A program made the position numbers and the translations under genes. Under the pieces are notes generated by a model. The model was not told the DNA's origin, searched no databases, and was given only the letters and a program-made list of their open reading frames with translations. From an uncultured Bacteroidales bacterium (lineage in GTDB: Bacteria; Bacteroidota; Bacteroidia; Bacteroidales; UBA932), in the NCBI GenBank assembly GCA_927798505.1, contig CAKMNE010000043.1, positions 1 to 10,252 on the forward strand: DNA of 10,252 nt, given 5' to 3'. Below are positions 1 to 10,252 of the stretch, piece after piece (positions within the stretch are counted from its first letter, which is position 1; every line of letters starts with the position of its first letter).

Positions 1-2800
1 AGGTAAATCCGTACTGCAGGCTTGCAAGGCTGTTTCCGAGGATTTCCCTGTCTCCTGGTTTCTCCGGAGTGTTATGTCCGATTCCCAGCTCCTTGTCGCC
101 GTCGAGGTCAAGATACTTGAGGTCTCCGGCCATCACACCACCGCGCATACGTGAGGTTCCGATGTATGAAAGCTGATCGCAGACATTGGTGTTGTAGTCT
201 ATAGCCTCTTCGTCAGTAGCGAAGAATCCGTCAACCTTGAATCCCCAGATATCACCTATCCTCTGGCCTACATAGTAGTCGCCGAGCAGGTGCTCAGGAT
301 TGTTGTCGTACCTGGTCACATAGGTTGAGTAGTCACTGAGAGTTCCGCGCAGGGAGTAACCGAAACGCTCCCCTGCAAGTTCGAAGGAATCCCTCCAGCT
401 GAGTGAGAGTTCATAACCCTTGGTTGAAAGGTCGGCCGAGTTCTCCTTCGGTGCGTCGGCTCCGTAGATTGCAGGAATCTTGCTTCCCTTTACAAGCATA
501 TTGAGGGTGTTGCGGACATACACGTCACCGGTGAACTCGAGCCTGTTTCCGAACAGGGCGATATCCAGACCGAGGTCCAGCTGCTCTGCGGTTTCCCAAG
601 TCAGATTGGCGTTTACAGGAGCGGAGAGAGAGGCATATTTGCCGTTGATGCTGCTCTCGCCGAAACTGTAATAGTAATGTCCCGACGTATTGAAGTTGTA
701 GAAGGACACTTCCTGGAGATAAGCGAAGTCAGCGACTTCCTGGTTGCCGAGGCGTCCGAAGGAAGCCCTGAGCTTTAAGTTGTCGAGAGTTCCCTTGAGA
801 TCCTCGAAGACAGGCTCCTCGCTGATACGCCAACCGGCTGAAGCTGAAGGGAAGAATCCCCAGCGATGGCCTGGAGCAAAGCGGGAAGAACCGTCATAGC
901 GGCCGGAAACCTCAAGCAGGTAACGTCCCTTGTAGTCGTAGTTCGCACGTGCGAAGAAACCGAGCAGGGCATTGCTGGTTGCTCCTCCGGAAACGCTTGA
1001 CACAACCTCTCCGTTGGCATCGGTTCCGATGAGATTGAGGTCGTTGAGATAAGGGGTGGAGATGTTCTGACCTGAAGCGGAAATGGACTTCCTGTGGTAG
1101 GTCTCGGCATTCATACCTGCGGTAAGGGTAAAGTGATGGGCGTCGGCAAAGGTGTCCTCGTATGTTGCGAAGACATTGGCCGACTGCCTTACGTAGGTGG
1201 CAACAGTCTCGGTGAGCTCGTTCAGACCGGCTCCGGTTGAATAGGACTCCAGAGCTGAATCAGGATATCTGCGGTAGGTGATAGGATAGAGCCTTCCGGT
1301 GTCTCTGTTCTGATAGAGTCTATAGGTGTAGTTTCCCACTATCGAGAGCTGCTCTACAGGCTTGATTGTCAGCTGAGTGGTGTTGGAGAAGTCGGTACGG
1401 ACCTTGGTGTTCTTGTCTATTCCTTCTCCGAAGATGATCTGACGTCCGTTAGCGATGTTGTAATTTCCGGCAATCATAGGAGTACCGTAGGTCCAGGTTC
1501 CGTCAGGGTTCTTCAGAGGGAAGCAGGCAAGCGCGTGGCGGGAAGCGTAAGCGAATGAGTCCTCGACATCACCTGCGCCGATCCAGTCGTAGCTGGAAGC
1601 GTAGAAGGAGGTATTGTTGGAAAGCCTTGCATACTTGTTGATCTTGAAATCAATCTTGCTGCGGAGGTTGTACTTCTGGAACACGTCAGGGTTGACCTTC
1701 ACCACACCGGTCTGACGGTCGTAACCGCCGGAGATGTAGTACTTCACATCCTTGTTGCCGCCGCTGATGGAGACGGTGTGGGAAGTGATAGGGTGCTGGT
1801 CATTGTAGAGTTCGTGGTACCAGTCGGTGTTGCAGTAGTAAACCCACTGGTTGCGGCCCTTGCGGAAATCCTCGACTATCCAAGGACGAGAAGGATCCTC
1901 GGTCACATCATTGATACGGGCGAGGAGCTGAATCATATCATCGTCCGTGTAGGTGGTGTACTTGTTGCCGCTGTCGGCCTCCCAGAACTTGTCCACGGTA
2001 TAGGCTGCCCAGTAGCCTCGGGTCTCGTAGTCGGTGGAGGTGGTAGGCTCTTCCCAGCCCCAGCGTCCGCTGTAACGGACTGTGGCCTTGCCGTCATCCC
2101 TCTTGGAATCCTTGGTGGTGACAAGCACTACACCGTAGGCACCACGGGCACCGTAAACGGCAGCCGCGGAGGCGTCCTTGATAACTGAAATGCTGGCAAC
2201 ATCGGCAGGGTTGACACGGTTGATATCTCCCGGAACACCGTCGATGAGCACGAGCGGACTTGCCGCGTTGATGGAAGTTGTACCACGGATGTTCAAGGTT
2301 CCGGTGGAACCAGGATTACCCGTTGAGGTAGAGATATTGAAGCCGGCAACGGAACCCTGCAACATGGTTGACAGGTTGTGAGCCACACGGTCTTCAAGGT
2401 CTTTGGACTCGACTGCGGTTACCGCGCCGGTGAGGTTGACTTTCTTCTGGGTACCATAACCCACAACAACAGTCTCCTCAAGTACGGTAGAGTCCTCTGA
2501 AAGGACTACAGACACAGCCTTTGTTCCTGCAGGGACGCTCACCGTCTTGGACATGTAGCCCAGTGAAGTGATTTCCAGGACAACGTCCGAGTCCGGAACC
2601 TGGATGGCGAATGAGCCGTCAAGTTCGGTCACAGTACCGTTGCTCGTCCCTTGTTGAATCACTGCCACACCCATAAGGGCTTGTCCGGCCTCGTCCACAA
2701 CCTTACCGCTGACGGTACGGCCCTGGGCGGCTGCACCAAATGTGCAGCAGACGGAAAGCAGCAGTGTCAAACCAAGAATGCGAAATACTTGCTTAAACAT
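1..2800 (-). CDS. SusC/RagA-family TonB-linked outer-membrane transporter, C-terminus cut by window edge
   Basis: Outer-membrane TonB-dependent transporter that, with a SusD lipoprotein, imports oligomers into the periplasm using energy from TonB-ExbBD. Reading from the ATG at 2800, the frame stays open for 933 codons to the left edge with no stop. Residues 1-26 are a Sec signal peptide ending in GAAAQ. A carboxypeptidase-D-regulatory-like beta-sandwich follows (about 28-105), then the TonB-box region EETVVVGYGTQKK (about 108-120), then the plug domain with LVLIDGVPG and the SusC signature ISVIKDASAAAVYGARGAYG (about 204-223). The last visible residues (DLDGDKELGIGH, then GDREILGNSLASLQYGF) match the SusC stretch that usually lies 100-200 residues before the C-terminus, so the full protein is probably about 1,050-1,100 residues. 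There is no STN domain, so it is not the type that signals through an anti-sigma factor. It starts 36 bases after the phosphoesterase stop. A susD gene is expected downstream, outside the window. Family very secure; substrate unknown. Confidence 0.96.
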   Translation of the reverse strand, partial: MFKQVFRILGLTLLLSVCCTFGAAAQGRTVSGKVVDEAGQALMGVAVIQQGTSNGTVTELDGSFAIQVPDSDVVLEITSLGYMSKTVSVPAGTKAVSVVLSEDSTVLEETVVVGYGTQKKVNLTGAVTAVESKDLEDRVAHNLSTMLQGSVAGFNISTSTGNPGSTGTLNIRGTTSINAASPLVLIDGVPGDINRVNPADVASISVIKDASAAAVYGARGAYGVVLVTTKDSKRDDGKATVRYSGRWGWEEPTTSTDYETRGYWAAYTVDKFWEADSGNKYTTYTDDDMIQLLARINDVTEDPSRPWIVEDFRKGRNQWVYYCNTDWYHELYNDQHPITSHTVSISGGNKDVKYYISGGYDRQTGVVKVNPDVFQKYNLRSKIDFKINKYARLSNNTSFYASSYDWIGAGDVEDSFAYASRHALACFPLKNPDGTWTYGTPMIAGNYNIANGRQIIFGEGIDKNTKVRTDFSNTTQLTIKPVEQLSIVGNYTYRLYQNRDTGRLYPITYRRYPDSALESYSTGAGLNELTETVATYVRQSANVFATYEDTFADAHHFTLTAGMNAETYHRKSISASGQNISTPYLNDLNLIGTDANGEVVSSVSGGATSNALLGFFARANYDYKGRYLLEVSGRYDGSSRFAPGHRWGFFPSASAGWRISEEPVFEDLKGTLDNLKLRASFGRLGNQEVADFAYLQEVSFYNFNTSGHYYYSFGESSINGKYASLSAPVNANLTWETAEQLDLGLDIALFGNRLEFTGDVYVRNTLNMLVKGSKIPAIYGADAPKENSADLSTKGYELSLSWRDSFELAGERFGYSLRGTLSDYSTYVTRYDNNPEHLLGDYYVGQRIGDIWGFKVDGFFATDEEAIDYNTNVCDQLSYIGTSRMRGGVMAGDLKYLDLDGDKELGIGHNTPEKPGDREILGNSLASLQYGFT

Positions 2801-2836
2801 GACTAGTACTTTTGGTTAATAATTATATTGGTTGGT
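2801..2836 (-). promoter_or_regulatory. AT-rich leader of the SusC gene (largest gap in the cluster)
   Basis: These 36 bases separate the phosphoesterase stop from the SusC start, and 26 of them are A or T, in strong contrast to the GC-rich coding sequence around them. On the coding strand there is a TATAATTATTAA stretch followed by an A-rich CCAAAAG about 8-14 bases before the ATG, as is common before Bacteroidota genes, which initiate without a Shine-Dalgarno sequence. I do not see a clean Bacteroides -7 element (TAnnTTTG) with a TTTG at -33, nor a hairpin. It is best read as a translation-enhancing leader, and only possibly as a secondary promoter. Confidence 0.35.
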
Positions 2837-4771
2837 TTATTTGTAATTGTCAACTTTGAAATCCAGAGGCCTTTGCATAGTCCGGGTATAAACCCTGCCT
2901 TCATCATCCGTGACTTTGATTTCCACGGTTGAGCTTGCGGAAGATGCCGCAGCCTTGAACAGGTGGTTTGTCTTGCTGGAGTGCCAAGTCACACCGTTGT
3001 TCTCCAGCAGTCTCGGGATGGTGTAGGCAATCAGGAAAGCAGGGTCATAGGAGCCGCTCATCTGACTGACTGTCAAGGCTTTGCCGTCCTCGAACATCTC
3101 CACCTTCCAGGACGGGTCCCAATCCCAGACATTGACAATCACCTCGTTGGCGCTGCTTGCGGTGCGGTATGAGCCGTAATCCTCTTCAAAAAGTATGGAC
3201 TCCCTTTCAGGCAGCACGCCGTAATTTGCCGCATTGATGCAGATGGAGTTGCGGTCATAGGCGCGGAACTGGTAGTCCTCAGGACGTCCTATGGCCTTGA
3301 AAAGGCTGTTCTGCTCCTTGCCGCTTACGGAAGTGATGCGGTAGCCGTTCGGGGCGCCGTCGGTTCCTATGTTGAAGGTAGGGTTATATTTCCCTGCCCA
3401 CCACCAGGCTGCGCAGACTGCTCCGCTGTTCTGCTCCACATACTTGCTCTTGACGACATTGTAAAGCACGTGGCTGTGGCCCGACACTATGGTGGTGTTG
3501 TAATCGTAAATCAGGCTGAGGAACACTGAATTGTTGCCTACACTTGCATTCCCGTTCCTGTCGTGGACAGGGGCGTGGAGAGTGACTACCAGAGGGGTGG
3601 TCTTAGGCACGAAGGAAAGGTCTTTCTTGAGCCAGTCCAGAATCTCTGAGGTAAGGTTATTCTTGTAGGACCTTACGCTGCCGTCCGTTGTGGATGCGGT
3701 AGCGTTGGTGCACTCGATATCGTCAAGAACCACATAGTGGATGTCACCCACATTGAACGAATAGTAGTTAGGGCAGAGTTTTTCCCTGAACTTGGCAACC
3801 GTATAGAAGTCTCCGGTAGCATTCATATCGTGGTCGTGATTTCCTATGGTATGGAAAATCTGCAGGCCCTCTATGGCATTCACATCATTGAGATACTGGT
3901 CAAAGCCGTAGGCGTTGGTGTACCAGAACTGGTCCCAGGTCATATCGCCAAGGGTGATAGCATAGACCTTGGCAGACGAATTGGCCTTCATATACTCGTT
4001 GATTTCGGAGGTGAATGTGCGGAACTGGGCCCTGTCCTTGGTACGGTTGGCCATATGCATATCTCCGAAATAGAGCATAGTGTGGTTGGTCTGGTCTCCG
4101 CTCTCGTAGAGGCTGAAGTCTATGCGCTCGCAAACGTAAGCGGATTTGGCGACCTGTTTGTGGAACTGCGGCAGCACTCCGCGGGCAGCGACCTCGTAGC
4201 CGCTCGGAACGGAAATGAACACATAGCCGTTCTGCTTGGCGGAATGCATCTGATAAACTCCCCTGGAGTCTGTAGCAACAACCTCCACGCCGTCTGAAAC
4301 GACAACTCCCGGAATGCCTTTGCCCTCACAGCTCACCAGGCCCCAGACGGTACTGCCTTCCTCCGGACCTATAGGATTGTCCTCGGAGCCCTGGGAGCCT
4401 TCCTGCACATAAGTCACCTTTCCGAAACCCCTCAGAGCCCCGTCCCTTCGAAGGCAGAAGCTGTAGGTGTCGAAATCGAACTGTTTAGGAAGCGTATAAG
4501 AGAAGGATGTCTTCTCCAGAGACTTTATCGGCAGGACGACATCGTCCAGGGACTCGCGTCTGAGAACGATTTCGTCAGTTGCCAAAGGGCCATAACCTGA
4601 GATGAAGGAACAACTCAGTGTCTGGCCGGCTTTGCACTCAATCGGAGACTTCGGATTGAGTTTTACCTGGCTGAGTTCGACTCCTATCTGCTCATTCGCA
4701 ATCTTGCTGGTACAGCACAGACAGCAGCACATCAGCAAGGCTAAGGTTGGGATTATCAGTCTGGTTCTCAT
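2837..4771 (-). CDS. Lipoprotein calcineurin-like metallophosphoesterase (MetallophosN/MetallophosC type)
   Basis: Predicted dinuclear-metal phosphoesterase of 644 residues, anchored as a lipoprotein in the periplasm or on the cell surface. A hydrophobic leader (about 5-18) runs into a cluster of cysteines at 15, 16, 17, 19 and 20, one of which should be the lipidated residue. Residues about 30-125 look like an Ig-like beta domain. About 141-195 resembles the MetallophosN beta-sandwich (TVWGLVSCEGKGIPGVVVSD). The catalytic domain has every metal-site motif in order: GDMH (D237, H239), LGD (D276), GNHD (N311, H312, D313), LHAPVHDR (H399) and GHSH (H432, H434). About 460-630 fits the MetallophosC domain. 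The protein is longer than a simple N-catalytic-C architecture because of the extra N-terminal beta domain. Only one base separates its start from the stop of the GH13-esterase gene, so the two are very probably co-translated. It could be a phosphodiesterase or a phosphomonoesterase; the motifs do not decide. Its place in a SusC cluster suggests it acts on a phosphate-bearing glycan or polymer. Confidence 0.92.
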   Translation of the reverse strand: MRTRLIIPTLALLMCCCLCCTSKIANEQIGVELSQVKLNPKSPIECKAGQTLSCSFISGYGPLATDEIVLRRESLDDVVLPIKSLEKTSFSYTLPKQFDFDTYSFCLRRDGALRGFGKVTYVQEGSQGSEDNPIGPEEGSTVWGLVSCEGKGIPGVVVSDGVEVVATDSRGVYQMHSAKQNGYVFISVPSGYEVAARGVLPQFHKQVAKSAYVCERIDFSLYESGDQTNHTMLYFGDMHMANRTKDRAQFRTFTSEINEYMKANSSAKVYAITLGDMTWDQFWYTNAYGFDQYLNDVNAIEGLQIFHTIGNHDHDMNATGDFYTVAKFREKLCPNYYSFNVGDIHYVVLDDIECTNATASTTDGSVRSYKNNLTSEILDWLKKDLSFVPKTTPLVVTLHAPVHDRNGNASVGNNSVFLSLIYDYNTTIVSGHSHVLYNVVKSKYVEQNSGAVCAAWWWAGKYNPTFNIGTDGAPNGYRITSVSGKEQNSLFKAIGRPEDYQFRAYDRNSICINAANYGVLPERESILFEEDYGSYRTASSANEVIVNVWDWDPSWKVEMFEDGKALTVSQMSGSYDPAFLIAYTIPRLLENNGVTWHSSKTNHLFKAAASSASSTVEIKVTDDEGRVYTRTMQRPLDFKVDNYK

Positions 4772-4772
4772 G

Positions 4773-7517
4773 TTATTTCAGGTAGTGTTCAAAAAATGTC
4801 AGAATTTCTTCGCAGGTATCCAGGTCTGCAAGATGCCAGGAATGCTTTCCGCCCCTGACTTCGTAGAGCCTGACCTCAGCCCCGCTCGGGCTGCCGAGCC
4901 ACTGGTGGAGAATCACCTTGCGCGAAGGCTTGCGGGTGTCCTTTCTCGGAAGCACGGTGGTCTTTTCGTATTCGCAGCCGCAGGCTGCAACTATGTTCCC
5001 TACAGCCACGGGCACTGAGAGATAAGGGCCCCAGCCGCCTTCACCCTTAGGGTCGCCGTCCCACATCGAGGTTTTGTCGGCTGTGCCGTGCACCTCCATG
5101 AAAGGAACGGGGCCGTGAGCCTTGAGTTCGCGGGACATCCACTGGAACTGCAGCCCCGCCACTGAAGCTATGGCCGAAAAAGCCTCCGGATGTTCAAGCG
5201 CAATGGCATAGGAAAGGTCTCCTCCGTTGGACATTCCGCTCAGAAAGACATTCTCAGACGAAAGCCCGAACCTGGAGCAGACCTCCTGCTTGAGGGCAAG
5301 CATGAAAGCCACGTCGTCAGTCGGCATTTCCGCCTGGGAAGGATAGCGCACATTCCAGCCCGGCTTGTACTTGCCCGACTCTGACCAGCCCACAGGCACG
5401 CATACCGCGAAGCCATGATCCCTGGCGGCTGCGAGCATCTCCGGACGGTAGCCCTCGGCCTTTCCGCCGTAGCCGTGCAGCAGGAAGAGGCAAGGCTTGC
5501 CGGGCAGCAGGGTCTCGGGCATGTAGAGATAGTACTCGCGCTGAAGGCCGCCGAATTCAAGGGTATGATGGGTGGCGTCGGACCACAGGTCCTGGTCAGG
5601 GGCCTTGTCGGCAGCTTCGATTCGCACTACAAGGGCCGAAACAGGGCCCATCTGTATCATATCCTCCTTTGCTCCCGGCTTGTAGGACGCCTTCCCGGAA
5701 GAGAGCATCACTTTGAGCGCCTTGCGGTCGGCGCAGGCCGGGATGCTGAGCTTCCTGCGTGAAGAGGTAGGGTTGAGTGCAACGAGATAGGTCTCGCGGC
5801 CGTCGGAGCGCTTGTAAACCATAGGGTACGGCTTGCCTTTGGTGAGAACCGGCTCCCAGCTGGCGCTGCCCCAGAAGGCAGGAGTGTTCTTGCGCAGTTC
5901 TATGAGCTGCCTTGTCCAGTTGAGCAGGGACTGAGGGTCATCCTGCTGACTCTCGACTGTAATCAGGCCCGCGGAGGTAGGATTCTTGGCACCTTCGGCC
6001 TTCCACTGCCTGTACAATGGCCAGGAGGTGGCAGGCGTCCACTCGGGACATACAGGAAGGTAGAGCTGCTCGGGGGCGCAGGTGCTGAAGCCGGCATTTT
6101 CCGAAGAGTCCCACTGCATTGGGGTGCGGGCGCCGGAGCGCTCCTTGCCGTTATGGTTGGCACCCTCGACATTGGGAAGGTCGGCGAGACTGCGCATTCC
6201 GATTTCATCGCCGTAGTAGAGGATAGGGAGCTGCTGGGTGAGTACCCAGGCCATCATCACCTTGAGCTGGTCGGCGCTGTTTCGCGCACCGGTGTTGAGC
6301 CTGAGATGGTCGTGATTGCCGGTGATGGTGGCGAAATAGCCCCAGTCGGCTGTCCTCCCGATGGCCTTGCCGTAACTGTCGCAGTATTTGAGGAGCATAT
6401 CTTCGGCATCCATACTCCTGTCTATCTTGTCTTCAGGCCAAGGATTGCCGTAGAGGTCCTTCAGGGACTCTTTGCCGCCGTTGAGGGAGAAATAGACTCC
6501 ACCGTCCGCCTGATGCTTCTTGTCGAAGTACATGCGGCGGTTGCTTGAACCGGTGGAATTCAGATACATGTCGACATTGAATCCTGCGGCAAGGCAGTAG
6601 GCTGGGTTGTTCCACTCGGCCATAAGCATCCTCTCCGGGAAGTTCTCATCCATCCAGCTGCGGATTTCCCGCCAGAAAGCGACTATTGCAGTCTTGTCCT
6701 TGTCGTTTTTGATAAGGCTGGCAGCCATGTCCACGCGGAAACCGTCAACTCCCTTGTTGAACCAGAAGGCGAGAATGTCCTTGAGTTCCTGCTTGACTGC
6801 AAGAGGACCCGGATCGTTGACGCCCTGCTCCCAAGGATGGTTGGGGTCCGGATTGGCAAAGCCGAAATTCAGGGAAGGCTGGCAGGCGTAGAAATTCTTC
6901 ATATAGTACTTCGCACGCTCTGCGCCCTGCACCTCGGATGCGAGCATCCATTTGCCTCTGGTATCCTGGAAAGGATTCTCTGAGGTAAGCATCTTCTGGA
7001 GGTCCTTCTCAGCCTTTTCGTCAGGAAGGACATCGCTCCAGATGTAGTAGTCGGAGTACTGCTGGTTGGCATCCGCCTGCATGCTCTGCCTGAACCAAGG
7101 ATGGTCCATCGAGGTATGGCCCGGAACGAGGTCAAGCAGGACCTTGATCCCGCGCTTGTGGCACTCGTCGATGAGCCTCACCAGGTCCGAGTTGGTGCCG
7201 AAACGGCTATCCACACTGTAGTAGTCGAGTATGTCGTAACCGCCGTCAATCCATCCGGATTTGAAAAGAGGATTGAACCACACGACAGTCACCCCGAGGC
7301 TTTCGATGTAGTCGAGTTTGGAAAGCACTCCCGGGATATCTCCGATTCCGTTTCCGTCCGAGTCCTTGAAAGAAGAAGGGTAAACCTGATAGATTACCGC
7401 ATTCTCAAGCCACTGCGGGCCCTTCTGCCAGGTCTGTTCGAAAGAACCCGGCTCCGGCTGCGCGAATAAGGAAAATGCAAAGTGAAGCAACAATACTGTT
7501 GCCAAAAAACGCTTCAT
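4773..7517 (-). CDS. Secreted two-domain enzyme: GH13 alpha-glucosidase/amylase fused to CE1/LpqC-like esterase
   Basis: Predicted exported bifunctional carbohydrate enzyme of 914 residues. Residues 1-19 form a Sec signal peptide (cleavage near LFA-Q) without a lipobox cysteine. The GH13 barrel begins at about 36 (LENAVIYQVYP), with a calcium-site-like DSDGNGIGD at 52-60. Its conserved regions are DLVPGH (129-134), QPSLN (213-217), GFRVD with nucleophile D263, LMAEW with acid/base E301, and GNHD with D403. The QPSLN motif is closest to the oligo-1,6-glucosidase type rather than the neopullulanase type (MPKLN). A small beta domain follows (about 555-633). From about 650 there is a complete alpha/beta-hydrolase fold: oxyanion LLHGYGG (679-685), nucleophile elbow GMSNGG with S763, acid D814 in HGTAD and base H892 in GGKHSW. 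Both catalytic sites are intact, so both activities are plausible: alpha-glucosidic bond hydrolysis and removal of an acyl or aminoacyl ester. It lies 15 bases after the phosphatase gene and 1 base before the phosphoesterase gene. The exact GH13 subfamily and ester substrate are not readable from sequence. Confidence 0.93.
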   Translation of the reverse strand: MKRFLATVLLLHFAFSLFAQPEPGSFEQTWQKGPQWLENAVIYQVYPSSFKDSDGNGIGDIPGVLSKLDYIESLGVTVVWFNPLFKSGWIDGGYDILDYYSVDSRFGTNSDLVRLIDECHKRGIKVLLDLVPGHTSMDHPWFRQSMQADANQQYSDYYIWSDVLPDEKAEKDLQKMLTSENPFQDTRGKWMLASEVQGAERAKYYMKNFYACQPSLNFGFANPDPNHPWEQGVNDPGPLAVKQELKDILAFWFNKGVDGFRVDMAASLIKNDKDKTAIVAFWREIRSWMDENFPERMLMAEWNNPAYCLAAGFNVDMYLNSTGSSNRRMYFDKKHQADGGVYFSLNGGKESLKDLYGNPWPEDKIDRSMDAEDMLLKYCDSYGKAIGRTADWGYFATITGNHDHLRLNTGARNSADQLKVMMAWVLTQQLPILYYGDEIGMRSLADLPNVEGANHNGKERSGARTPMQWDSSENAGFSTCAPEQLYLPVCPEWTPATSWPLYRQWKAEGAKNPTSAGLITVESQQDDPQSLLNWTRQLIELRKNTPAFWGSASWEPVLTKGKPYPMVYKRSDGRETYLVALNPTSSRRKLSIPACADRKALKVMLSSGKASYKPGAKEDMIQMGPVSALVVRIEAADKAPDQDLWSDATHHTLEFGGLQREYYLYMPETLLPGKPCLFLLHGYGGKAEGYRPEMLAAARDHGFAVCVPVGWSESGKYKPGWNVRYPSQAEMPTDDVAFMLALKQEVCSRFGLSSENVFLSGMSNGGDLSYAIALEHPEAFSAIASVAGLQFQWMSRELKAHGPVPFMEVHGTADKTSMWDGDPKGEGGWGPYLSVPVAVGNIVAACGCEYEKTTVLPRKDTRKPSRKVILHQWLGSPSGAEVRLYEVRGGKHSWHLADLDTCEEILTFFEHYLK

Positions 7518-7532
7518 ACTGGGGATTGATTA

Positions 7533-8363
7533 TCAGTTTCTTGATTCTTCGAGCAGATTGCCAAGTTCCTCTATATCACGGCAAATCAGGGTAGGAACCA
7601 CATCGGAGGCACGGGCGGCTTCAATGGTGGTTTCGCCGCTGAGCACCAGCACTCCGACGGCTCCGGCATTGATGCCTGTCTTCACGTCAGTGTAAATCCT
7701 GTCTCCCACAATCGCAGCCTCCTCTGGCTTCAAACCCTTCTTGTCCAGGATTCCGAAGAGTATGTCAGGATTCGGTTTGCCGATTACCACATCCGGCTTA
7801 CGGCCGGTAGCGGCCTCGATGCATGCGCAGATGGAACCGCAGTCCACAAGCACTGTAGGCTGGTCGGTAGGGCAAACCCAATCGGGATTGGTTGCGATGT
7901 AAGGCAGTCCTTGTGATGCCCACCAGGCGCAGCGGCAGAGCCTGCTGTACTGCAGAGTCATGTCGAACGCAGCCACAACCACGTCCGGCCTGTCCTCAGG
8001 GTCATCGGCGCAGGAACGGAAACCCGCCTGCTCGAACTGCTCTATCATCGAAGGAGTTCCGAGCAGAAAAAGATTGCGCGCCTCGGGATAATGGGTTCGG
8101 ATGTAGTCCACAGTCGCAACAGCGCTGCTGTACATCTGGTCCGGCCGACAAGGAACACCCCTCTTGCGGAGGTTTTCAAGATAGGCTTCTATGGATTTGG
8201 TAGGATTATTGGTAAGGAAGGAGTAGCCTATCCCCATCCAGTCGAGTTTCTCGAGAAAAGGTACTGTGTATGGGAACAGGGTGGAACCAAGGTAGATGGT
8301 TCCATCCATATCCAGTGCAACGTGCTTAACCGCGCGCAGTCTTTGTTTCAACTCGTCAGTCAT
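7533..8363 (-). CDS. HAD-IIA (NagD/AraL-like) phosphatase
   Basis: Predicted cytoplasmic HAD-superfamily phosphatase of 276 residues, subclass IIA. The start chosen is the ATG at 8363. A longer in-frame reading from 8414 would overlap the transporter gene by 59 bases and add 17 polar residues before the conserved core. From 8363 the overlap is only 8 bases (ATGACTGA, shared start/stop), the pattern of translational coupling. Catalytic motifs are present: DMDGT (nucleophile D18, D20), LTNN (T51), K196 in GKPNPD and GDRIYTD (D221, D226). The cap and substrate-loop region shows the NagD-family hallmarks ATNPDWVCPT, CGSI and ATGRKP. There is no signal peptide. Family members hydrolyse small phosphates such as p-nitrophenyl phosphate, nucleoside monophosphates, phosphoglycolate and glycerol phosphate. 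Its position directly after a GlpT-like importer makes glycerol-3-phosphate or a related imported phosphate the likeliest substrate, which is inference. Family secure, substrate not. Confidence 0.9.
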   Translation of the reverse strand: MTDELKQRLRAVKHVALDMDGTIYLGSTLFPYTVPFLEKLDWMGIGYSFLTNNPTKSIEAYLENLRKRGVPCRPDQMYSSAVATVDYIRTHYPEARNLFLLGTPSMIEQFEQAGFRSCADDPEDRPDVVVAAFDMTLQYSRLCRCAWWASQGLPYIATNPDWVCPTDQPTVLVDCGSICACIEAATGRKPDVVIGKPNPDILFGILDKKGLKPEEAAIVGDRIYTDVKTGINAGAVGVLVLSGETTIEAARASDVVPTLICRDIEELGNLLEESRN

Positions 8364-9846
8364 TCTTTTCGTTGAGCTTTGAGGTAAATTCCCTTGCGCG
8401 GTCGTAACCGTCACGAGGAGCTTTCCACATGGCGAGGAAAATCAGGGCTCCGATCAAGCCGACGGCGATGAAGGTGATGAACACCCAATTCCATCCGAAA
8501 TGGTCAGCAATCAGACCGACACCCAGAGCCGAGAGTGCGGAACCTACATAACCGCAGATGCCGGCAAGTCCGTTTGCCGTCGCGGAAGCCTCCTTGGTGG
8601 CCTGGTTGGCGGAACCGATTCCGATCAAGGCCTGAGGGCCGTAGATGCAGAATCCGGACATTGCGAGAACCAGGGTTGAAACAACGGTCGGCAGACCCGG
8701 AACGAGGGCGAAGATTGCAAGGAAGAGGCAGGCCCCAATCATAGAGAACAGACACATCCTGTGGCTCTTGCCCTTGAAGATATGGTCGGACGCCCAACCT
8801 GCGAATATGGTTCCGATGATAGCCGTTAGCTCAAATACGGCAACTGACCAGGCGGCGCCGTTGATGTTCATGCCCCTGTCCTCGGTGAGGAACTTAGGGC
8901 CCCAGTCAAGCACACCCATTCGGAGCACATAGACAAAGACATTGGCGATGGCAAGCATCCAGACCCATTTGTTGCGGAAGACCATGTGTGAGAGGAATGC
9001 CTTGTGCGCACCCTTCTTGCCACCGGTCTCTTCCTTTCCGGTATGGGTTCCTTCCAGCTCGGGAAGACCCACGCTCTGAGGGGTATCCTTGAGGGCGAGA
9101 AGGCTGATGGCGGCACCACCTATGGCCACAATGGCAGGGATGATGAAGCACCAGCGCCATGCGCCCACGTGGGCGGCATAGCTCATGACCTTCGCACTCT
9201 GGTCGGCAGCGCTCATAGTGTCCCATCCCTTGATGCTGGCAGCCAGATTGGCTGTAATGCGGGCAACCACAGAACTGTCTCCGCTCATGTCGGCTCCCAT
9301 ATTGGTCATAATGAGACCGCAAATCACCACAGCGCTGAATGCGCCTATGGAGTGGGAGGTGTTCCATATGCTCATCTTTGTGGCGAGCTCACCCGGAGCA
9401 ATCCACTGCGGGAGCATGCGGGCGCAAGGCGGATAGCCGAAGCCCTGGAAATACTGGTTGAGCACGATGGTGACACCCATGACAAGAATGAGCATATTGA
9501 CAAACTGAGGACCCTCGTGCACACCCGTAATCAGGTAGCTGAGGTCAACTCCGAAGCCGAATCCGAAGTTGGCAAGGGCGCAGAGGAGCAGACCTATAGC
9601 CATAAAGACCTTGGTGCTGACCTTCTCCACGATGAAGCCGTTGACAAAACGGCTGAGGCCGTAAATCAGAGAGCCTATTGCTATGATGACACCGAAACTG
9701 GTGTTGGAAATGCCATACTCAGCCGTAAGACCCGGCATGGCAATGGAAAAATTCTTGCGGACGAAATAGTAGATGGCATAGACAATCATCGACACCACGA
9801 TGGTATGCCACTGCCAGGCTTTGAAATTATTTCTATTCTTACCCAT
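8356..9846 (-). CDS. GlpT-like MFS transporter (organophosphate:phosphate antiporter family)
   Basis: Predicted inner-membrane 12-helix transporter of 496 residues that exchanges an organic phosphate, most likely glycerol-3-phosphate, for inorganic phosphate. It aligns by eye with E. coli GlpT along its whole length. The substrate-binding arginine R45 of E. coli corresponds to R30 in YYFVRKNFSIAMP, and R269 corresponds to R309 in IANVFVYVLRMGVLDW. The histidine of the WNxxHN motif is kept as H165 in WNTSHSIG, and the DTPQSVGLPE segment after helix 6 is also shared. The IANVFVY(L/V)LR stretch is closer to GlpT than to what I recall of UhpT or UhpC. Compared with GlpT it carries about 40 extra residues between helices 5 and 6 (about 183-228). 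It starts 4 bases after the phosphodiesterase stop and overlaps the phosphatase start by 8 bases, so it sits inside a tight glycerol-phosphate-type cassette. Hexose-phosphate or glycerophosphodiester specificity cannot be excluded, so no gene symbol is assigned. Confidence 0.9.
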   Translation of the reverse strand: MGKNRNNFKAWQWHTIVVSMIVYAIYYFVRKNFSIAMPGLTAEYGISNTSFGVIIAIGSLIYGLSRFVNGFIVEKVSTKVFMAIGLLLCALANFGFGFGVDLSYLITGVHEGPQFVNMLILVMGVTIVLNQYFQGFGYPPCARMLPQWIAPGELATKMSIWNTSHSIGAFSAVVICGLIMTNMGADMSGDSSVVARITANLAASIKGWDTMSAADQSAKVMSYAAHVGAWRWCFIIPAIVAIGGAAISLLALKDTPQSVGLPELEGTHTGKEETGGKKGAHKAFLSHMVFRNKWVWMLAIANVFVYVLRMGVLDWGPKFLTEDRGMNINGAAWSVAVFELTAIIGTIFAGWASDHIFKGKSHRMCLFSMIGACLFLAIFALVPGLPTVVSTLVLAMSGFCIYGPQALIGIGSANQATKEASATANGLAGICGYVGSALSALGVGLIADHFGWNWVFITFIAVGLIGALIFLAMWKAPRDGYDRAREFTSKLNEKND

Positions 9847-9850
9847 TATA

Positions 9851-10252
9851 TCAGTTTTTGAATTCCTTGTCTCCCAGAATTTCCCTCAGCAACAGAGGCT
9901 CGTTTGTGGTAATCACGTCCACGCCCATATCGATGAAATTGCGCATATCCTTGGCCTTGTTGACAGTCCAGACATTAACGCTCATCCCCAGGTCGTGCGC
10001 TTCCTTAACCCACTCCGGATGCTCGTAGAGCACCTTGTGTTGATAGTCTATGCCGTTGATGCCGGCTTTGGCAAGATCTGCAGGCGCGATGTCACCGTTG
10101 AGGTACTGGTTGGTGAATGCAGGAGCGAGCTTTGCCACAGTCTTGCAACTGCAGTAGCTGAAGGAGATGAAGGCAACCCTGGAAGGGTCCCAAAGTCCGT
10201 GTTTGCGAATTTTCTTCATTGCCTTGCGTACAAGAGCCTTGTCCCTCTTGTC
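9851..10252 (-). CDS. Glycerophosphodiester phosphodiesterase (GDPD family), C-terminal part only
   Basis: Enzymes of this family hydrolyse glycerophosphodiesters to glycerol-3-phosphate and an alcohol. Only the last 133 residues are inside the window. The frame is open up to the right edge, with 11 codons (DKRDKALVRKA) preceding the first visible methionine at 10219, so that methionine is internal and the true start lies outside. The late family landmarks are visible: the F-S beta strand (AFISFSYCS), GINGIDYQ, the conserved VNVWTVN with its tryptophan, and the final barrel strand GVDVITTNEP. The catalytic HRG and E-x-D motifs belong to the missing N-terminal half, so activity and any signal peptide cannot be judged. 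Typical members are about 250-300 residues, so roughly half is present. The gene ends 4 bases before the GlpT-like transporter, a pairing well known from glpTQ operons, which supports glycerol-3-phosphate as the transported product. Confidence 0.88.
   Translation of the reverse strand, partial: DKRDKALVRKAMKKIRKHGLWDPSRVAFISFSYCSCKTVAKLAPAFTNQYLNGDIAPADLAKAGINGIDYQHKVLYEHPEWVKEAHDLGMSVNVWTVNKAKDMRNFIDMGVDVITTNEPLLLREILGDKEFKN

Follow-up and report, generated by a model that had tools for sequence, protein, structure and literature searches.

The described systems closest to the locus analysed here are the SusC/SusD polysaccharide utilization loci of Bacteroidota, the GlpQ/PhoD turnover system of Bacillus subtilis, the GlpT antiporter of the Escherichia coli glp regulon and the HAD-IIA glycerol-3-phosphate phosphatases (4i9f, 7po7), to which the B. 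subtilis pair AraL-AraM can be added. Lipoteichoic acid is a polymer of glycerol-1-phosphate (G1P) and wall teichoic acid a polymer of glycerol-3-phosphate (G3P). Glucosyl and alanyl groups on teichoic acid impede GlpQ, according to the excerpted text of PMC7086022. In the excerpt of PMC10434189, an iron-response table lists the B. thetaiotaomicron SusC/SusD pair BT4724-25 and the GDPD BT4727 as near neighbours (BT4724-BT4727); that table gives the locus tags no function, and the likeness to our locus is one of description. Among the matches listed in a literature search, at the level of titles and the opening lines of abstracts, there was no SusC/D locus for glycerol-phosphate polymers, nor a diet of Gram-positive envelope polymers or glycerol-phosphate conjugates in these bacteria.

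The window, that is, the whole stretch of 10,252 nucleotides analysed, is the entire contig C43 of a metagenome-assembled genome (MAG; G000:C43) of 64.6% completeness. ORF calls, Pfam and NCBIfam place six gene families on its minus strand:

9851..10252, minus strand: GDPD, 3' part only, 133 aa (PF03009)
8356..9846, minus strand: GlpT-like organophosphate antiporter, T2 clade, distinct from canonical GlpT (MFS_1; match to E. coli GlpT, 1pw4)
7533..8363, minus strand: HAD-IIA phosphatase (TIGR01460 above cut-off; motifs DMDGT and GDRIYTD)
4773..7517, minus strand: fusion of GH13 and a PHB-depolymerase-like esterase, with a signal-peptide-like start (PF00128, esterase models)
2837..4771, minus strand: metallophosphoesterase (MPP) of MetallophosN-Metallophos-MetallophosC architecture, a lipoprotein-like phosphoesterase (PF16371/PF00149/PF16370)
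2..2800, minus strand: SusC outer-membrane transporter, 3' end missing, 933 aa (TIGR04056)

From GDPD through SusC the genes overlap or lie 1-36 bases apart, in line with the tight packing on one strand in the original prediction. All six predicted families are present, but the transporter falls outside the canonical GlpT clade, and GDPD and SusC are incomplete: since the window is the whole contig, both are truncated by its ends.

L120, a locus from a second MAG, aligns with the full 10,252 bases of the window at 92.5% and extends further, in the order GH3, GDPD, GlpT-like transporter, HAD, GH13-esterase, MPP, SusC, SusD and BACON protein. The susD gene that was to be looked for in the flanks lies past the contig end of the window and is found in L120, where it stands 3 bases from a complete SusC of 1,103 aa and is followed by the BACON protein gene; the truncated SusC of the window scores 725 bits with TIGR04056. 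Likewise, the window GDPD matches only the C-terminal half of PF03009 (profile positions 120-242 of 244, E 2.3e-14), and its complete counterpart (L120 6872-7672, 266 aa) matches with E 1.2e-26. The latter has 3no3 as its best solved match (E 1.2e-56) and, read by eye, the GDPD-fold motifs HRG, ECDIHLTSDG and NHD and a signal-peptide-like start. Searching a set of 5.8 billion proteins yielded 18 fused GH13-esterase homologues of 71-97% identity at a query coverage of at least 98%. These proteins, together with L120, rule out that the fusion is an assembly chimera, and because the gene order in L120 is identical, the cluster as a whole is neither a chance arrangement nor an assembly artefact. 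Among the loci compared, the complete gene set occurs only in the window and L120. A sister copy, C20, carries SusC-MPP-GH13 without GDPD-GlpT-HAD; C20 and C43 may represent a strain mixture or paralogues, and the L120 genome shows a single copy of the locus.

With its SusC, SusD, BACON protein and exported hydrolases in a compact array, the L120 locus resembles a Bacteroidota polysaccharide utilization locus. It differs from such loci in carrying two phosphoesterases, a GH13-esterase, a GH3, an inner-membrane organophosphate antiporter and a HAD phosphatase. The likeness to B. subtilis GlpQ/PhoD turnover, as excerpted in PMC7086022, lies in a GDPD accompanied by a second, different phosphoesterase, and in substituents that the enzymes have to cope with unless these are stripped off first. 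The second enzyme here, however, matches PF16370/PF16371 and no PhoD model, and Bacillus is without SusC/D.

We monitored the linkage of MPP to glycerol-phosphate genes in 398 genomes of the window's family. A GlpT-family match lies within 12 kb of the MPP match in 33 of 112 cases, where about 1.0 is expected, and within 500 bp in 20 of 112. Orthologous MPP-SusC-SusD units stand beside GlpT repeatedly in the window's genus; a window-type SusC (53-62%) was found in 14 of 20 loci taken from MPP-GlpT pairs, in 11 of these with GlpT at 3.5 kb or less. The neighbours of MPP loci include GlpD or GlpA and DeoR regulators, and in one locus (L261) an FGGY kinase and an MIP channel. In L149, sister to the window MPP clade, SusC-SusD, GH13 and MPP are accompanied by a DeoR regulator and GlpA-like and GlpC-like genes. 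Glp-type genes are present in 11 of 23 family MPP loci (12 counting the L095 fusion) and about half are without them, counts that vary with the amount of contig sequence around each locus; as the ORF scans kept the longest frame, genes under antisense frames may be missed in most neighbourhood tables. Outside the family, none of three MPP loci in an order-level sample has Glp neighbours. The Glp label is spread across the MPP tree, and the idea that the Glp-linked MPPs form one clade was rejected (8 changes on the tree against a shuffled mean of 9.7, with 84 of 500 shuffles as low). MPP is also fused to GDPD, in five proteins detected by Pfam and five further ones by BLAST.

The original prediction depended on the two halves of the locus meeting in relatives, and they do so in these MPP-SusC-SusD units beside GlpT, in the MPP-GDPD fusions, and in L110 (GlpD-GDPD-G1PDH-GlpT-HAD-SusC-SusD) and L103, where the GDPD-GlpT-HAD trio independently adjoins SusC/SusD. 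Of the co-occurrence proposed for all six families, the part that stood is the recurrence of MPP and of T2-HAD near glycerol-phosphate genes; the full set did not recur beyond the window and L120. The adjacency in L110 and L103, the recurrent linkage and the fusions support glycerol phosphate as the likely product and a single SusC/D locus. The locus probably serves the utilization of a glycerol-phosphate conjugate. The reading we favour, at a little above even confidence, is a utilization locus of SusC/D type whose target, a polymer or conjugate, is glycosylated and acylated and contains glycerol phosphate. Teichoic acid is the leading candidate substrate, still unproven.

In the pathway we envisage, in which cellular places, step order, the bond cut by each enzyme and the substrate are all inferred, the MPP lipoprotein would cut phosphodiester bonds at the cell surface, where SusD and the BACON protein are the likely binders, and SusC would import the resulting fragments. 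The exported GH13-esterase would strip alpha-glucosyl and acyl groups that would otherwise block exolytic cutting; its esterase may remove D-alanine and its GH13 domain teichoic glucose. GDPD would then release glycerol phosphate, which the T2 antiporter would carry across the inner membrane in exchange for phosphate. Inside, HAD would dephosphorylate it, or GlpABC, whose genes lie elsewhere in the genome, would oxidize it to DHAP, or both would act. If this is true, a family of SusC/D loci is wired to glycerol-phosphate metabolism, these gut bacteria would live on polymers of Gram-positive envelopes or on other conjugates of glycerol phosphate, and the MetallophosN/C phosphoesterases would gain a functional setting.

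The transporter is of the OPA type, as is E. coli GlpT. Its best NCBIfam model is PgtP, at 292 bits, followed by GlpT at 277 bits, and in a 71-row alignment it groups in the T2 clade, apart from the canonical GlpT clade (100/99). The glpT equivalog cut-off of 632 bits cannot by itself separate the clades, because the tested canonical-clade members (458-562 bits) miss it as well. The columns of R45, H165 and R269 are conserved in 71 of 71 rows and that of K80 is R in 19 of 24 T2 rows; these four we take to be residues with functional roles in E. coli GlpT. The phosphatase scores 121.6 bits with TIGR01460 (cut-off 100.15), which together with its motifs places it in HAD-IIA, and it more probably starts at ATG 8363 than at the GTG 8414 of the listed ORF. 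It matches the glycerol-3-phosphate phosphatases 4i9f (E 8.3e-21) and 7po7 (E 2e-20), but among solved structures it is closest to 1vjr, which is named 4-nitrophenylphosphatase.

T2 clade genes accompany HAD and sometimes also a sn-glycerol-1-phosphate dehydrogenase (G1PDH), and this neighbourhood tentatively suggests the G1P enantiomer, from lipoteichoic acid or the phosphatidylglycerol head group, as substrate. HAD adjoins G1PDH and GlpR in five of five loci, a context in which it may act on glycerol phosphate. In L110, L103 and L210-L214 it has a relative of G1P dehydrogenase as its neighbour, an arrangement comparable to AraL-AraM; no such dehydrogenase is encoded in the window or the L120 stretch. 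A bolder proposal, which we hold only tentatively and consider rather unlikely, is that T2 and HAD form a Bacteroidales G1P branch, T2 importing G1P and HAD, joined in relatives by G1PDH, breaking it down, with canonical GlpT and GlpD/GlpABC taking G3P, so that chirality-matched loci exist for both polymers; the present locus would then be a lipoteichoic-acid eater, since that is the poly-G1P polymer. The two teichoic acids differ in chirality, and which of them a locus consumes should follow from the transporter clade and the type of dehydrogenase that it carries. The window's own genome contains no match to canonical GlpT, yet it has GlpA-B-C-like genes elsewhere, and T2 carrying G3P would fit this.

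The strongest competing explanation, though an improbable one, is that the locus scavenges lipid head groups: glycerophosphodiesters and glucosylated glycerolipids from the membranes of plants, microbes or the host would be deacylated by the esterase and relieved of glucose by GH13, and the phosphoesterases would free glycerol phosphate. GDPD-GlpT-HAD-G1PDH modules without SusC/D in the visible stretch (L210-L214) are consistent with this, as is the sn-glycerol-1-phosphoryl head on phosphatidylglycerol mentioned in the excerpt of PMC7086022. However, SusC, SusD and the BACON protein would be better suited to large substrates than to small diesters, and no lipase family was detected among the scanned proteins of the window and the L120 locus.

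It is considerably less probable that two unrelated modules lie side by side by chance: a GDPD-GlpT-HAD trio for the housekeeping use of glycerophosphodiesters, and a SusC-MPP-GH13 locus of alpha-glucan type. The absence of the trio from C20 would agree with such a split, as would the close GH13 loci, most of which are without Glp neighbours, and L106, L109 and L112, which have the transporter and HAD with no SusC/D in the visible stretch. Against it stand the close spacing from GDPD through SusC, the MPP-GlpT linkage far above chance, the GlpA-like and GlpC-like genes near MPP in L149, the fusion of MPP to GDPD elsewhere, and the trio beside SusC-SusD in L110 and L103.

The MPP matches PF16370, PF16371 and PF00149 only, which sets it outside the PhoD sequence family, and its Cys20 and presumed metal ligands (D237, H239, D276, N311, H312, H399, H432 and H434) are invariant in 24 sequences. 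Compared with the PDB, its profile is closest to purple acid phosphatases (E 6.2e-8), the best phosphodiesterase being ASM-like PDE3a (E 0.055); with these as nearest solved relatives, a monoesterase role is possible. This proximity favours phosphate acquisition, in which MPP would be a surface phosphomonoesterase and the locus would supply phosphorus from a range of organophosphates that includes glycerol phosphate, but we regard this as very unlikely, given neighbours that are carbon-catabolic glycerol-phosphate genes (GlpD/GlpA and DeoR, and the kinase and channel of L261). Osmoregulated periplasmic glucans were set aside as substrate, GH13 and GH3 being the only glucan-degrading families among the scanned window and L120 proteins.

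In the GH13-esterase, PF00128 spans residues 44-492 (E 2.1e-72), and the esterase region, at about 658-898, is PHB-depolymerase-like (Pfam E 6.2e-6; NF050058 E 9.3e-29). The catalytic nucleophile, acid/base and third Asp (D263, E301 and D403) are invariant in 16 aligned GH13 sequences. GH13 was rejected as a marker of the locus: in 32 of 34 close GH13 loci the stretch examined is free of glycerol-phosphate genes, L120 and L149 being the two that have them. Separately, we observed an EEP phosphatase domain fused to GH13 in five of the 34 close loci (L131, L133, L136, L140 and L142), and in 8 of 120 among the GH13-search matches listed.

The source MAG comprises 1.26 Mb in 143 contigs (64.6% complete), the window being the whole of contig C43; the data used throughout are mostly MAG sequence. 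Six minus-strand ORFs fill the window, in the transcription order GDPD (glycerophosphodiester phosphodiesterase family), GlpT-like transporter, HAD (HAD-IIA phosphatase), GH13-esterase, MPP (MetallophosN-Metallophos-MetallophosC phosphoesterase) and SusC. By ORF coordinates, 4 bases separate GDPD from the transporter, the transporter and HAD overlap, and the remaining gaps are 15 (HAD-GH13), 1 (GH13-MPP) and 36 bases (MPP-SusC). Pfam and NCBIfam profile matches bore out, with corrections, the family names first given to the six genes. GH13, MPP and HAD all keep their catalytic motifs, and motifs of the esterase are likewise present. A GH13-alignment scan of genome contigs, of which the best 80 of 93 matches were kept, found a similarly spaced locus in another MAG (L120; CALYTI010000005.1, uncultured Bacteroidales bacterium) with 92.5% identity to the window across all 10252 bases. 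L120 extends past the window's ends to a GH3 gene 144 bases upstream, the full GDPD and SusC, a BACON-domain protein and SusD, whose gene the original prediction had proposed to seek in flanking sequence. In 250-base bins the two loci are 88-100% identical across most of their length and 72-89% identical at ~5.0-8.25 kb (window 5003-8252), which takes in the greater part of HAD and almost the whole GH13-esterase. The pattern is a mosaic, with 5003-8252 as a recombination or fast-evolving block.

The predicted GH13-esterase fusion is genuine, since 18 fused homologues (P0001-P0018) were found at 71-97% identity. At another locus (L121, 9986-12588) GH13 and esterase are two adjacent separate frames, the locus stopping within the esterase, possibly the unfused ancestral state. 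Contig C20 of the same assembly (L021, G000:C20, 1-6762) holds a second SusC-MPP-GH13 copy, at 87% and 82% DNA identity. This copy lacks the esterase domain as well as GDPD, transporter and HAD, and is either a paralogue or a strain mixture. GH13 itself is weakly linked to glycerol-phosphate metabolism (Glp-type) genes (2/34 close GH13 loci). We also observed another pairing of sugar hydrolase with phosphoesterase, in which an EEP phosphatase domain (PF03372) is fused to close GH13 relatives at L131, L133, L136, L140 and L142, and likewise in the database proteins P0052, P0065, P0067, P0071, P0077, P0079, P0086 and P0104. More distant GH13 relatives (40-41%; L026, L028, L029) adjoin proteins that, by eye only, resemble neutral ceramidases.

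In a family sample of 149 genomes, MPP matches at E <= 1e-20 occurred in 31 genomes and 23 matches reached 1e-60. Glp-type genes (GlpT, GlpD, GlpR, GDPD or HAD) were present in the stretches (4.4-19.9 kb, some stopping at a contig end) around 11 of these 23 loci, window included, or 12/23 if the GDPD domain of the L095 fusion counts; L086 was scored as a miss, yet has an MPP-GDPD fusion (L267) further along. An order sample of 295 genomes gave MPP matches at 1e-60 in 5 genomes, and the three MPP loci among these that lie outside the family (L219, L220, L221) had no Glp neighbour. The linkage was examined further in 398 genomes of the family, with 112 MPP matches (E <= 1e-100) in 83 genomes and 144 GlpT-family matches (E <= 1e-60; query, the L094 GlpT) in 137 genomes. 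A few of the latter, at 35-39% identity, are probably members of T2, the antiporter clade that includes the window transporter and is distinct from canonical GlpT. A GlpT-family match lay within 500 bp of 20/112, 3 kb of 24/112 and 12 kb of 33/112 MPP matches, the last against a rough expectation of 1.0 from genome size. In 20 loci, picked for having such an MPP-GlpT pair and hence not a random sample, 14 carried a SusC 53-62% identical to that of the window, with GlpT within 3.5 kb in 11 of the 14 (L242-L244, L246, L249-L255). Besides the pair, L261 encodes GlpB- and GlpC-like proteins, an MPP-GDPD fusion, and an FGGY-family kinase plus a MIP channel, which we read as GlpK and GlpF; L260 combines GlpT with a GlpC-like gene and a fusion of this kind. 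The MPP tree places a horse-faeces protein (L149) as sister to the window-C20-L120 clade (support 100/100), and besides SusC-SusD, GH13 and MPP its locus encodes an S1/P1 nuclease-like protein, a regulator of DeoR type, and proteins resembling GlpA and GlpC, which flank a short GlpB-like frame. Contig C56 of the window genome holds counterparts of these GlpA-, GlpB- and GlpC-like genes at 70, 43 and 66% identity. Counting against the linkage, the Glp label is scattered over the MPP tree (8 changes; 84/500 shuffles equally low), and therefore the linkage was gained and lost repeatedly.

Domain scans demonstrated that MPP and GDPD also occur within one protein:

MPP-GDPD fusions detected by domain scan
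L261, 2100-4361: MPP-GDPD fusion
L247, 11538-13811: MPP-GDPD fusion
L091, 3433-5667: MPP-GDPD fusion
L095, 2225-4456: MPP-GDPD fusion
L260, 14306-16567: MPP-GDPD fusion

Those of L091, L095, L247 and L260 are ~750-aa second MPPs; all four scanned carry GDPD, and the domain is absent from all five shorter MPPs scanned alongside. BLAST added five more fusions (L266, L267, L268, L270, L274). Separately, the N-terminal half of PDB 7ww4 and 7wwc, chains named beta-1,3(4)-glucanase, matches the L120 GDPD (E 7e-42), possibly another glycanase-GDPD fusion.

According to PMC7086022, wall teichoic acid is poly-G3P and lipoteichoic acid poly-G1P; GlpQ is exolytic and stereospecific and is impeded by glucosyl and alanyl groups, and glycosylated wall teichoic acid can be cut by PhoD. 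A predicted glucosidase, esterase, second phosphoesterase and GDPD would sensibly suit a substituted glycerol-phosphate polymer; the cellular places, step order and bonds cut in such a pathway are those we infer. The MPP could possibly be a phosphomonoesterase instead, because its nearest solved relatives in the PDB are purple acid phosphatases. Against this, the stretches fetched at L093, L094, L096 and L099 showed GlpT and GlpD without a neighbouring GDPD, an arrangement easiest to understand if MPP itself frees glycerol phosphate. Among the papers listed for PULs or their SusC/SusD proteins together with teichoic acid, glycerophosphate, GDPD or calcineurin-like phosphoesterases, a listing of titles and abstract starts that covered few subscription journals, none described a SusC/D locus for glycerol-phosphate polymers.

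The GDPD-transporter-HAD trio recurs with a relative of glycerol-1-phosphate dehydrogenase (G1PDH). The order is GlpD-GDPD-G1PDH-transporter-HAD-SusC-SusD-metallophosphatase-BACON at L110 and GDPD-G1PDH-transporter-HAD-SusC-SusD, with an MPP relative further along, at L103. Three G1PDH proteins scored best against the model for NAD(P)-dependent glycerol-1-phosphate dehydrogenase, at 170-186 bits, short of its cut-off of 413. G1PDH was found in 6 of 295 order genomes; the five loci outside the window genome (L210-L214) have HAD and GlpR in 5/5, GDPD in 3/5 and a T2 transporter in 4/5, that of L212 going unrecognised. Because the relatives at L210, L211, L212, L213, L214, L110 and L103 sit inside Bacteroidales GlpR-GDPD-transporter-HAD modules, these bacterial proteins are suggested to be catabolic rather than lipid-making. 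The window genome's own relative (G000:C92 110-1534, L209; 39%) lies outside any such module; the frames adjoining it look, by eye, like chromate transporters. A locus from the window's genus (L280) reads GDPD-GlpA-GlpB-GlpC-GlpT, then T2 transporter and HAD.

We scored neighbours within 3.5 kb for 71 transporters (24 T2, 47 canonical rows). HAD accompanied 18/24 T2 rows and G1PDH 7/24, four of the seven having been fetched for their G1PDH. Among canonical rows, 3/47 had HAD, each time with a T2 gene close by, and 1/47, a 30% outlier, had G1PDH. The transporter tree splits T2 from canonical (support 100/99), which reflects distance and is not an independent finding, as rows were labelled by best BLAST match. 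In the alignment column that corresponds to K80 of E. coli GlpT, which we take to be a residue with a functional role, canonical rows have K in 47/47 and T2 rows R in 19/24 and K in 5/24.

A bolder reading is that T2 and HAD, joined in relatives by G1PDH, may serve sn-glycerol-1-phosphate; if true, this would suggest lipoteichoic acid or phosphatidylglycerol as its source. Counting against this are the lysine kept in some T2 rows and the absence of G1PDH from the window and from the L120 stretch. Moreover, the window's genome (64.6% complete) has GlpABC-like G3P genes and no canonical GlpT match, and its T2 may therefore carry G3P. Elsewhere in the same genome, at L022 (G000:C3, 1-14342), SusC, SusD and an MPP relative are followed by a glycosyltransferase, a transporter of the T2 clade and two GDPDs, together with mannitol PTS and MtlD genes recognised by eye.
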